Both the position numbers and the translations under genes were made by a program. The notes under the pieces are model-generated. The model was given only the letters and a program-made list of their open reading frames with translations, was not told the DNA's origin and did not search any database. From positions 1-64,000 of the forward strand of contig CAIYUO010000105.1 of assembly GCA_903929425.1 (NCBI GenBank): 64,000 nucleotides of DNA, given 5' to 3'. Of this stretch, positions 8,644 through 56,290 are shown one piece after another (within the stretch, counting starts at the first letter, position 1; every line of letters begins with the position of its first letter). Source of the stretch: an uncultured Bacteroidota bacterium. GTDB taxonomy: Bacteria > Bacteroidota > Bacteroidia > Chitinophagales > Chitinophagaceae.

Positions 8644-8655
8644 ACATAAATAACA

Positions 8656-8684
8656 AAAAACCCCGAACTAAGTTCAGGGTTTTT
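8656..8684 (-). terminator. Rho-independent terminator at end of atp operon
   Basis: AAAAACCCTGAAC-TTA-GTTCGGGGTTTTT on minus strand, T-tract. Confidence 0.88.
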
Positions 8685-8700
8685 CAAATATAGATTAGTA

Positions 8701-10278
8701 CTATTTGTATTGAGGGATCAAGCTATTAGCTAAATCAACCATTTGCTTAATGCCGTCTTCTGGTAAGTTTCCTTTTTTGAATTCAGCTAATACATTTGGT
8801 AATTTGTTAGTCATTTCCAATAAGAAATGTGCTTCAAATTCTTTTACGTTTTTAACCGCCACTTCCTTTAACAAACCTTGTGTACCTAAGTAAATGATTG
8901 CAACTTGCTTTTCAACGGTGAATGGAGTGTATTGCGCTTGTTTTAAGATTTCCACGTTTCTAGCACCTTTGTCAATTACGTTTTTAGTAGCTGGATCCAA
9001 ATCACCACCAAATTTAGAGAAGGCCTCTAACTCACGGTATAATGCTTGGTCTAATTTCAAGGTACCAGATACTTTTTTCATTGATTTAATCTGCGCGTTA
9101 CCACCCACACGACTTACGGAGATACCTACGTTAATTGCTGGACGAATACCTGCGTTAAACAAGTTACCTTCTAAGAATATTTGACCGTCTGTAATAGAAA
9201 TTACGTTAGTAGGAATATAAGCAGATACGTCACCCGCTTGTGTTTCAATAATTGGCAATGCAGTTAATGAACCACCCCCTTTTACCAAATGCTTGATAGA
9301 AGCTGGTAAGTCGTTCATGTTTTTAGCAATATCATCGTTTGCAATTACTTTCGCAGCACGCTCTAATAAACGACTGTGTAAATAGAATACGTCACCTGGA
9401 TAAGCCTCACGACCTGGCGGACGACGTAATAACAATGATACCTCACGATATGCAACCGCTTGCTTTGATAAGTCATCAAATACAATTAACGCTGGTTTAC
9501 CACAATCACGGAAAAACTCACCCACCGCTGCACCAGCAAATGGAGCATAGAATTGTTGAGGAGCTGGATCCGCTGCAGAAGCTGCAACAATTGTTGTGTA
9601 AGCCATCGCACCGTTATCCTCTAATGTTTTCATAACACCAGCAATTGTAGATGCTTTTTGACCAATTGCAACATATATACAATATACAGGCTGACCTGCA
9701 TCGTAGAATTCTTTTTGATTGATAATCGTGTCCACACAAATAGCTGTCTTACCAGTTTGACGGTCACCAATTACCAATTCACGTTGACCACGACCAATAG
9801 GAATCATCGCATCAATTGCTTTGATACCCGTTTGTAATGGCTCTTTTACAGGCTCACGGAAAATTACCCCTGGCGCTTTACGCTCTAAAGGCATTTCATA
9901 CAATTCACCTTGAATAGGACCTTTGCCATCTATTGGCTCACCCAACATATTAATGACACGACCAACTAAACCATTACCTACTTTAATAGAGGCAATTTGT
10001 CCTGTTCTTTTTACTTTATCACCTTCTTTAATAGCCTTGCTATCACCCATCATTACCACACCCACATTATCTTCCTCTAAGTTTAAGGCAATCGCTTTAA
10101 CACCATTTTCAAACTCCACAAGCTCACCACTGCTAACGCCATTCAAACCATATACACGAGCGATACCATCACCCACTTGTAATACAGTACCTACTTCTTC
10201 TAAATCAGCACTTGCATTAAAGTTGCTTAATTGCTGTCTAAGAATCGCTGATATTTCATCCGGTTTAATGTCCACCAT
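8701..10278 (-). CDS. atpA: F0F1 ATP synthase subunit alpha
   Basis: [53 protein letters not shown]. Confidence 0.98.
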
Positions 10279-10304
10279 AATAGTCTATTTTAATAAATGA
10301 TTAT

Positions 10305-10865
10305 TTAAATTTTTTCTACGAACTCGTTATGTAAAAATTGTTTTTTGATATCTTTTAAATCTCTTGCGATACTCGCATCCAATAAATTATTATCGAATTC
10401 TAATACAAAACCTCCAATAAGCGATTCATCGGTTTTTGTAGTTAATTCAATCGTTGCAAATTTATTTTCTGCTTTTACTTTGTCCTCAATAGATTTTTTC
10501 AATACATCACTTACTTCAACAGCTGTCGTTAAAGTAACTTGATGAATTCCTTTTAAAGCATTGTACTGTTCAATAAAAGCAGAAGCCATTTCAGGTAAAT
10601 CGCGTTCTCTTCCTTTTTTAACCAACAAAACAGTGAAGGCATTTGTAAGTGCACTTACTTTATCCTTAGTAACCGCATCGATAATACTATTTTTTTGATC
10701 TGCTTTTATGATGGGACTGCGCAATAAATTTACAAACTCACTGCTTGCTGTACATACAGCCTGCAAATATTTCATGTCAGTATATACCGCTTCCAATTGC
10801 CCTTTTTCAGTGGCAAGGTCTAATATACTTTTTGCGTATCTGCCTGCTAAACGAGCGTTTGACAT
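10305..10865 (-). CDS. atpH: F0F1 ATP synthase subunit delta
   Basis: ARLAGRYAKSILDLA...LLVKKGRERDLPEMASAF...ESLIGGFVLEFDNNLLDASIARDLKDIKKQF; position in atp cluster. Confidence 0.95.
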   Translation of the reverse strand: MSNARLAGRYAKSILDLATEKGQLEAVYTDMKYLQAVCTASSEFVNLLRSPIIKADQKNSIIDAVTKDKVSALTNAFTVLLVKKGRERDLPEMASAFIEQYNALKGIHQVTLTTAVEVSDVLKKSIEDKVKAENKFATIELTTKTDESLIGGFVLEFDNNLLDASIARDLKDIKKQFLHNEFVEKI

Positions 10866-10871
10866 TTTTTA

Positions 10872-11381
10872 TTAATTTAATTTAACTCCGTCTGCTAATT
10901 GCTTAATATAACCTTCTTGTTCAGCTTTATTAGACAACTCTTTTCTTAATACTTTTTCAGCAACTTCAATCACTAATGACCCTACTTGATTTTTAACATC
11001 AATTAAGGCAGCATTTTTTTGTTGTGTAATAGCTAATTGTGCATCCGCTAAAATACGATCGTATTCAGCCTTTGCTTTATCTTTTGCTTCAGCAACCATT
11101 TTCTCAGAAGCTTCTTTTGCTTCTTTAATTAAAATAGCTCTTTCTTCACGTGCTTTAGCCAACAATGCTTCATTTTCATTTTGCATGGCTGTTATCTCCG
11201 CTTTCATTTTGTCGGCCTTTAACAAAGCTTCCTCAATGCCGCTTTCACGGTCATGAATTGCTTTTAAAATTGGCTTCCAAGCGAATTTGCCCAATACAAT
11301 TAATAAAACCAAAAAAGCAATGGTATTCCAAAATACCAAGCCAATATCTGGCAACACCAAGGGGTTTATTTCTAACAACAT
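10872..11381 (-). CDS. atpF: F0F1 ATP synthase subunit b
   Basis: N-terminal TM then coiled coil; FAWKPILKAIHDRESGIEEAL. Confidence 0.95.
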   Translation of the reverse strand: MLLEINPLVLPDIGLVFWNTIAFLVLLIVLGKFAWKPILKAIHDRESGIEEALLKADKMKAEITAMQNENEALLAKAREERAILIKEAKEASEKMVAEAKDKAKAEYDRILADAQLAITQQKNAALIDVKNQVGSLVIEVAEKVLRKELSNKAEQEGYIKQLADGVKLN

Positions 11382-11440
11382 AAAACTCTATTTATATTAT
11401 TTATTTATAATTTCTATTCTATCTTTCAATACTTAAAAAA

Positions 11441-11474
11441 TTATAGGCCCATCGCCCTGTGCTAGGGCCTATAA
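11441..11474 (-). terminator. Intra-operonic terminator/attenuator-like hairpin between atpE and atpF
   Basis: Minus strand TTATAGGCCC-TAGCACAGGGCGAT-GGGCCTATAA followed by TTTTTT; perfect 10-bp inverted repeat. Confidence 0.7.
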
Positions 11475-11516
11475 TAAGTTTGTGAAATCTGGTCTATGAC
11501 CTAAATTCCAACTTGA

Positions 11517-11747
<231 letters not shown>

Positions 11748-11774: not shown

Positions 11775-12893
11775 TTAGTGATGAGCCGCTCCTTCATGTG
11801 CCTCGTGATGATGTTCCTCTGTTGCCATTCCAATATACATTGCTGCTAACATGGTAAAGATGAAGGCTTGCAAAAATGCAACCAACAACTCGATCAAACC
11901 AATAAACACTGCGAATGGAACTGCAATTGCAGAAGCAAAAACCGTTTTGAATATGAAGATTAAACAAATCAGACTTAATACAAGAATGTGGCCTGCAGTA
12001 ATGTTCGCGAATAAACGAATCATTAAAGAAATAGGCTTTGTGAATACACCTATCAACTCAATGGGGGCCAAAAATAACTTCATGCTCCAGTGCATACCTG
12101 GCATCCAGAAAATGTGTTCCCAGTAACTTTTATTAGCACTCAAATTCACCACTATAAAAACACAAACTGCTAATGTCATGGTGAACGCAATATTACCACT
12201 CACATTCGCTCCACCTGGAAAGAACGGAATTAAACCTAAAAAGTTATTCGTTAAAATCAAAAAGAAAATCGTTAATAGGAAAGGCATGTACTTCCCAGAT
12301 TTTTTTGCACCAATATTTGGGATAGCAACTTCGTCTCTAACAAATAAAATGATTGGCTCCATGAAGGATTGCAATCCTTTAGGAGCTGTTTTAACACCCG
12401 TTTTTTTATAAGCAGCTGCTGAGCTTAATAACACCACCAACAAAATAAAAACAGATACAAACAAGCTTGCTACGTTTTTAGTAATAGATAAATCCCATAA
12501 TTGCTTGCTAGCGGCTGCATCTAAATTTCCACTGGCATCTACAATTTTTGTTTTGCCTTCAATTAATTTATAATCAAAGTTTCCTTTGTAAACAACAGGC
12601 TCATGATGCTCGTCAACAAATTTTTCAGAAGAAAAAACTTCAAATCCTTTTGATGTTTTTAAAATCACTGGCAAGTGAATGGAAGTATGTCCCCACAAGT
12701 GCCAACTATGATCGTCCTTAATGTGCTCCAAAATTGTTTCAGTAACATTAAAGTCACCTTCTTTTTTCTCAGCATTAGCAATTTGCCCTTCTGCAGCAAC
12801 CGTACTTTCATTGGCAAATGAATTGGTTACACTTAACAAAGCAAAGAGGCTGAAACACGCTACCAGTAAAGTTTTTAATCGTAATAAGGACAT
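11775..12893 (-). CDS. atpB: F0F1 ATP synthase subunit a with long N-terminal periplasmic-type extension
   Basis: C-terminal subunit-a domain (ELIGVFTKPISLMIRLFANITAGHI); N-terminal signal-like MSLLRLKTLLVACFSLFALLSVTNSFA; start 12893 preferred over 12947. Confidence 0.94.
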   Translation of the reverse strand: MSLLRLKTLLVACFSLFALLSVTNSFANESTVAAEGQIANAEKKEGDFNVTETILEHIKDDHSWHLWGHTSIHLPVILKTSKGFEVFSSEKFVDEHHEPVVYKGNFDYKLIEGKTKIVDASGNLDAAASKQLWDLSITKNVASLFVSVFILLVVLLSSAAAYKKTGVKTAPKGLQSFMEPIILFVRDEVAIPNIGAKKSGKYMPFLLTIFFLILTNNFLGLIPFFPGGANVSGNIAFTMTLAVCVFIVVNLSANKSYWEHIFWMPGMHWSMKLFLAPIELIGVFTKPISLMIRLFANITAGHILVLSLICLIFIFKTVFASAIAVPFAVFIGLIELLVAFLQAFIFTMLAAMYIGMATEEHHHEAHEGAAHH

Positions 12894-56087: not shown

Positions 56088-56095
56088 TAAGTTTG
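56088..56095 (+). promoter_or_regulatory. -7-like element upstream of cobalamin riboswitch
   Basis: TAAGTTTG matches TAnnTTTG; -33 element not evident. Confidence 0.4.
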
Positions 56096-56104
56096 TACTG
56101 AAAT

Positions 56105-56290
56105 TAGGTTCATGTAAATGATTAAAAGGGAATCCAGTAAATGCTGGAGCTATTCCCGTAGCTGTAAGTTTATCGTTGTTAGCAACGAATTGCAATAATC
56201 CACTGAAGCAATTTGGGAAGGATGCAATTTAAAAGAACAAGCCAGAAGACCTGCCTAGTTAATTTATAACCAACAGCTTTCGGGTAAAAA
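56105..56290 (+). promoter_or_regulatory. Cobalamin (B12) riboswitch upstream of btuB
   Basis: GGGAATCCAGTAAATGCTGGAGCTATTCCCGTAGCTGTAA core and B12 box GCCAGAAGACCTGCC (56241-56255), followed by downstream CTTTCGGG element. Confidence 0.93.

Follow-up and report, generated by a model that had tools for sequence, protein, structure and literature searches.

It has long been asked how one ATP synthase operon yields about 10 c subunits for each b dimer. Bacteroidota do not solve the problem of c-subunit excess by Shine-Dalgarno strength, and work on Flavobacterium johnsoniae described Bacteroidetes mRNAs as being without Shine-Dalgarno sequences (PMC6847099). The question is considered here for the atpE-atpF spacer of an uncultured Chitinophagaceae bacterium, in which an earlier note had placed a terminator or attenuator as a possible RNA-level route to excess AtpE. 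The window analysed here was the whole stretch of 64,000 nucleotides containing this spacer, and the features of the locus were the following, in the order in which they are read:

11775-12893, minus strand: atpB, subunit a (PF00119 ATP-synt_A; ATG start inferred from the ORF)
11517-11729, minus strand: atpE, subunit c, the upstream gene (PF00137 ATP-synt_C)
11483-11510, minus strand: small second hairpin GGAATTTAGGTC-ATA-GACCAGATTTC (fold of -9.8 kcal/mol, z -3.6; closest relatives only, spacers L003, L008, L011 and L036)
11440-11475, minus strand: atpE-atpF spacer hairpin, with an 11-bp outer stem, a 2/3-nt internal loop, a 2-bp upper stem and an ACAGG pentaloop (sequence, inverted repeat, fold and covariance model)
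11465-11475, minus strand: 5' arm ATTATAGGCCC (sequence and inverted repeat)
11454-11462, minus strand: conserved apical motif GC-ACAGG-GC, with the pentaloop ACAGG at 11456-11460
11440-11450, minus strand: 3' arm GGGCCTATAAT (sequence and inverted repeat)
11435-11440, minus strand: T6 tract at the 3' end of the stem, beginning with the last paired base (sequence and T-tract enrichment in relatives)
10872-11381, minus strand: atpF, subunit b, the downstream gene (PF00430 ATP-synt_B)
8701-10865, minus strand: atpH and atpA, downstream in the same operon (PF00213 OSCP and PF00006 ATP-synt_ab)

The gene order a, c, b, delta, alpha was confirmed by Pfam, and the atpE stop codon occupied positions 11517-11519. 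A strong terminator-like hairpin lay 3' of atpA (8654-8686, minus strand), with ABC transporter genes next; atpG did not directly follow atpA in the window. The sole Rfam match at gathering level in the window was a cobalamin riboswitch (RF00174, 96.4 bits, 56089-56272, plus strand).

Read on the minus strand, the spacer hairpin was ATTATAGGCCC-TA-GC-ACAGG-GC-GAT-GGGCCTATAAT-TTTTT. Its arms were 100% complementary over 11 bp; throughout the 5.5 kb searched, no perfect non-overlapping inverted repeat within 60 nt was longer. The minimum free energy was -19.0 kcal/mol, compared with -9.0 +/- 2.8 kcal/mol in dinucleotide shuffles (z = -3.56; 0 of 200 as low). Such a stable GC-containing hairpin is characteristic of intrinsic terminators, and a strong 3'UTR stem-loop inside an operon is likewise characteristic of the stabilisers of selective RNA processing and stabilisation (SRPS). 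Both the sequence and the coordinates previously quoted for the hairpin were correct, and its 5' arm, counted from the limit then used (11474), does begin 42 nt past the atpE stop. A generic terminator scan missed the hairpin because the loop exceeds the 8-nt limit of the scan. Covariance models scored it at 38.4 bits (R1) and 57.0 bits (R2, which was partly built from it). The small second hairpin (core GGUC-AUA-GACC) preceded the main one, 3' of the atpE stop; about six close relatives (L008, L011, L036 and L040 among them) seemed to have compensatory changes in it, and it was absent elsewhere.

Across relatives, the best hairpin of the atpE-atpF spacers had a median of -21.4 kcal/mol (z -3.9), with 90% at or below -15 kcal/mol, against a median of -2.4 kcal/mol (z 0) for the atpB-atpE spacers. 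The atpF-atpH gap was at least 40 nt long in 57 of 197 relatives, about half of these having strong hairpins of their own.

Up to 100 congeneric genomes supplied spacers, of which 92 were read, some of them overlapping loci from one genome. In each of the 92 the motif GYAMAGGRC occurred exactly once, enclosed in a long stem. The stems, mostly of 9-13 bp, varied in sequence (TATAGGCCC, TATACAGACC, TTACTGCATCG, ATACAAGGTCT, AACTGCACC and others), each with a matching 3' arm, and the apical part GC-ACAGG-GC was nearly fixed (variants AAAGG and GU-ACAGG-AC). In some species the upper stem had changed from GC/GC to GU/AC with its pairs maintained (C-G to U-A covariation). The internal loop was usually of 3x3 nt in the genus, and of 2/3 or 3/4 nt in the clade of the window.

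Pairing was quantified in two alignments. Among 15 symmetric sequences, aligned with MAFFT without gaps and not fitted to the model, 99.4% of the cells were paired and 11 of the 12 pairs showed double changes. The corresponding values for 55 distinct sequences on a helix of 10+2 bp were 98.9% and 11 of 12, this alignment being fitted to the model and biased towards it. None of 500 shuffles reached the covariation of the 55 sequences, a control not to be taken as a probability, and slid controls were paired at 22-40%. Covarying pairs thus occurred together with conserved unpaired positions, as in structured RNAs, at levels far above the slid and shuffled controls. Compensatory changes conserved the pairing in close and distant relatives, and the idea of the earlier note thereby passed the test of conserved pairing that the note itself had set; that note had overlooked the apical pentaloop, the 3x3 internal loop and the conservation well beyond the family. 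The presence of G-U pairs on the coding strand pointed to an element acting as RNA. By these comparative measures, the hairpin is an RNA structure conserved in ATP synthase messages of Bacteroidia.

The R2 covariance model had exactly one match per genome in 129 of 150 Chitinophagaceae genomes (93 of 103 genera), the E-values of such short models being only rough. One R2 match, in genome G370, was counted as chance, lying on a different contig from its atpE. When 21 family genomes lacking an R2 match were opened, 19 had a findable atpE; in 11 of these 19 the core was the same but the stem had diverged, and most of the remainder had a hairpin with another loop. In the window's own genome the next match was at noise level: it (C85:62799, 18.9 bits) had a mismatched upper stem, lay at another gene and was attributed to chance. 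A mobile or genome-wide repeat was rejected on this single copy. Contigs in five genomes (G015, G042, G058, G069 and G070) started or ended within atpE, or had a second partial atpE, probably from assembly breaks at a conserved gene.

In other Bacteroidia families the same spacer held a hairpin with a GGUUG, GAUUG, GUUAG or GAAUG pentaloop. Distinct spacers (325) were divided into an RNARG class (151), a GNNNG class (82) and other, weak or very short cases (92), the two classes being defined by loop patterns ending in G, which makes the invariant last G partly a matter of definition; some of the "other" spacers contained this motif as well, their fold giving it a loop of 3 nt. The 233 classed hairpins included 105 ACAGG and 35 AAAGG loops in Chitinophagaceae, and 56 GGUUG, 13 GAUUG, 5 GUUAG and 4 GAAUG loops in the other families; the loop-closing pair was C-G in 218 of the 233. 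GGUUG or GAUUG was carried by Flavobacterium, Pedobacter, Fluviicola and Taishania, among others, and GUUAG by Algoriphagus and Echinicola. One spacer (L318) combined both forms, with a Chitinophagaceae-like 3x3 internal loop and a GGUUG loop. The GGUUG form was 96.6% paired, with double changes at all 13 pairs. A model of this form (R3) matched 78 of 247 genomes of the class; of its genome-wide matches, the 30 best lay just 3' of atpE in 28 cases, and so did 31 of the 35 others that allowed a check. Two R3 matches away from atpE (L400 and L402) were set aside, looking like ordinary hairpins at other genes. Matches in three genomes from other classes of the phylum were not placed at atpE, and the one in L450 had no atpE nearby. 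In six spacers (L330, L331, L341, L344, L347 and L370; Hymenobacter) UUCG, UUCA or other loops stood in place of the conserved pentaloop, on hairpins of very high stability (-36 to -47 kcal/mol). Several Bacteroides and Prevotella had short atpE-atpF spacers without the hairpin, which is therefore not essential to the ATP synthase. On the sequences compared, the pentaloop is conserved across most sampled Bacteroidia.

The proposal that the hairpin is a terminator found partial support. At least 5 T in the 8 nt after the stem were found in 81% of RNARG hairpins (34% when shuffled) and in 72% of GNNNG hairpins (28% when shuffled), and a T-run of at least 4 in 67% and 66% respectively (19% and 16% when shuffled), far above chance. 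In 595 kb of the window's own genome, hairpins between convergent genes had T-runs of at least 4 in 87% of cases and of at least 6 in 61%, and those between divergent genes in 21% and 4%. The atpE hairpins of the family, with 67% and 23%, were above the divergent negative control (p = 3e-5) and, for runs of at least 6, below the convergent gene ends (p = 6e-5), both p-values being only a guide with hairpins related by descent. The tract was thus weaker than at the ends of operons in the same genome. In the window it directly follows the stem as T6, and about a third of the relatives had no T-run of at least 4, which argues that intrinsic termination is not the conserved function everywhere. 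The T-tract pattern supports partial, rather than full, 3'-end formation as the probable outcome.

The explanation we favour, on a slight balance of probability, is that of a leaky stem-loop which would make or protect a 3' end after atpE and so favour c over b, delta and alpha. The element would be a single-copy stem-loop about 8-40 nt past the atpE stop, with a C-RNWDG-G pentaloop. A share of the transcripts would have their 3' end there, either through weak intrinsic termination or through downstream cleavage with a block to 3' exonucleases, or through both, so that short atpB-atpE messages would outnumber the full atpBEFHA messages, and this excess would contribute to the several-fold excess of c over b, delta and alpha. 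In this way the hairpin probably sets the output of the c subunit relative to the following genes. The loop and internal loop were the most conserved part and were retained where the T-run was poor; since a fixed loop is needed neither for termination nor for blocking exonucleases, a factor that binds the loop is likely. We infer a putative protein that would read the loop, stabilising the hairpin or tuning termination, or else a special loop fold common to RNWDG pentaloops. Several points count against the explanation as a whole: about a third of the hairpins are poor in T, several Bacteroides and Prevotella do without the element, c excess is achievable by translation alone, as in Escherichia coli, and the form of the loop differs between families.

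A plain leaky intrinsic terminator, for which only stem stability and the U-tract would matter and the loop would be kept for fast or stable folding, like UUCG and GNRA in other terminators, would account for the T-tract enrichment and for an anatomy of hairpin and T-run resembling that of convergent gene ends. It was considered a doubtful candidate, because the third of hairpins that are poor in T still keep loop and stem, and because the 3x3 internal loop of Chitinophagaceae would weaken termination. Moreover, in the 595 kb covered of the own genome, 0 of 92 other hairpins had such a loop, and a generic terminator loop was rejected on this count.

We give the same low standing to a processing or stabiliser stem (SRPS), in which an endonuclease would cut the full-length transcript within the 50 nt of AT-rich sequence that precede atpF, while the 3' end of atpBE would be shielded by the hairpin. 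The strong stem (median -21 kcal/mol) and the AT-rich stretch preceding atpF agree with it, and stem-loops of this kind are proposed for ATP synthase operons of Clostridium (PMC8219983); the T-tract enrichment would however be superfluous for a stabiliser, and a fixed loop unnecessary for blocking exonucleases.

A regulatory switch, in which a loop-reading protein (or small molecule) would control read-through into atpFHA according to the energy or assembly state, appears slightly less probable than these two. It would fit the fixed apical and internal loops and the single copy at one gene, but the spacer has no second conserved domain, the conserved unpaired positions are few for a ligand pocket, and an alternative fold was not conserved. 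The competing inner pairing (GCCC with GGGC) suggested earlier would cost at least 9 kcal/mol, with a pair probability near 1e-6 (-6.6 or -9.9 vs. -19.0 kcal/mol for the hairpin); it was possible in 43 of 233 relatives. The switching attenuator was accordingly abandoned, its inner pairing being energetically negligible and not conserved.

That the hairpin terminates the operon fully and atpF has a promoter of its own is very improbable. The T6 tract of the window is in keeping with this, and the Bacteroidota -7 motif TAnnTTTG was mildly enriched before atpF (18 of 233 spacers vs. 7.9 expected); more than 90% of the spacers nevertheless lack such a promoter, including that of the window (no TTTG between hairpin and atpF), and the U-tracts were weaker than at real operon ends. 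With the promoter so rare, atpF is probably read from the atpE transcript and full termination is unlikely. Finally, a palindrome acting at the level of DNA, for example as a regulator site or cruciform, has the perfect inverted repeat in its favour and can practically be discounted, as the arm sequences vary freely while the pairing stays, G-U pairs are tolerated and the conservation lies in the loop and not in the arms; a DNA regulator site was rejected on the covariation and the G-U pairs.

A wider reading can be put forward tentatively, at clearly less than even confidence: an unrecognised RNA element widespread in Bacteroidia, at one site per genome, whose pentaloop would be read by a putative protein and which would set or regulate the ratio of c to b, delta and alpha without recourse to Shine-Dalgarno strength. 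With a class-wide RNA element at a single site, directly after the gene whose product is needed in excess, the stoichiometry question becomes testable in genetically tractable species such as F. johnsoniae, and a protein-bound loop would offer a route to a new RNA-binding factor.

Several known systems serve the same need or have a similar form. In the E. coli atp operon, a translational enhancer lies 5' of atpE and c excess is achieved by translation alone; it answers the need for excess c subunit, as proposed for the hairpin, but acts on translation from the 5' side, whereas the Bacteroidota hairpin is 3' of atpE. The targets of NusG paralogues, such as LoaP/dfn, are small RNA hairpins whose specific loop is recognised by a transcription factor; they are located in 5' leaders, unlike the spacer hairpin, for which the reading factor is only putative. 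The cyanobacterial ATPC RNA motif is also a structured RNA beside the c-subunit gene of an ATP synthase operon, but belongs to another phylum and to another spacer (between the a and c genes). No Rfam 15 family, ATPC included, matched the element at gathering score in the window and 19 related loci. No report of the element was found in the literature, which is not proof of absence as not all RNA-motif surveys were covered; the text of the survey of Weinberg (2010) does not mention ATP synthase or atpE.

Internal terminators in Clostridia have a lower U content and tune operon stoichiometry (PMC9045158). Those of ABC importers in cellulolytic Clostridia (PMC9045158) are, as here, intra-operon stem-loops 3' of a gene needed in excess, and the atpE hairpins share with them a U-tract weaker than at operon ends; the Clostridia terminators are individual stem-loops, whereas the atpE hairpin is one homologous hairpin whose pentaloop is kept across families. 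The SRPS elements (PMC8219983) are also intra-operon 3'UTR stem-loops, with ATP synthase operons among the predictions; the parts of the paper drawn on here describe no conserved loop, and the atpE hairpin adds T-tract enrichment and loop conservation. In its presumed function the element is closest to internal terminators (PMC9045158) and to the stem-loops of SRPS (PMC8219983), and it is set apart from both by its conserved loop and its conservation across families.
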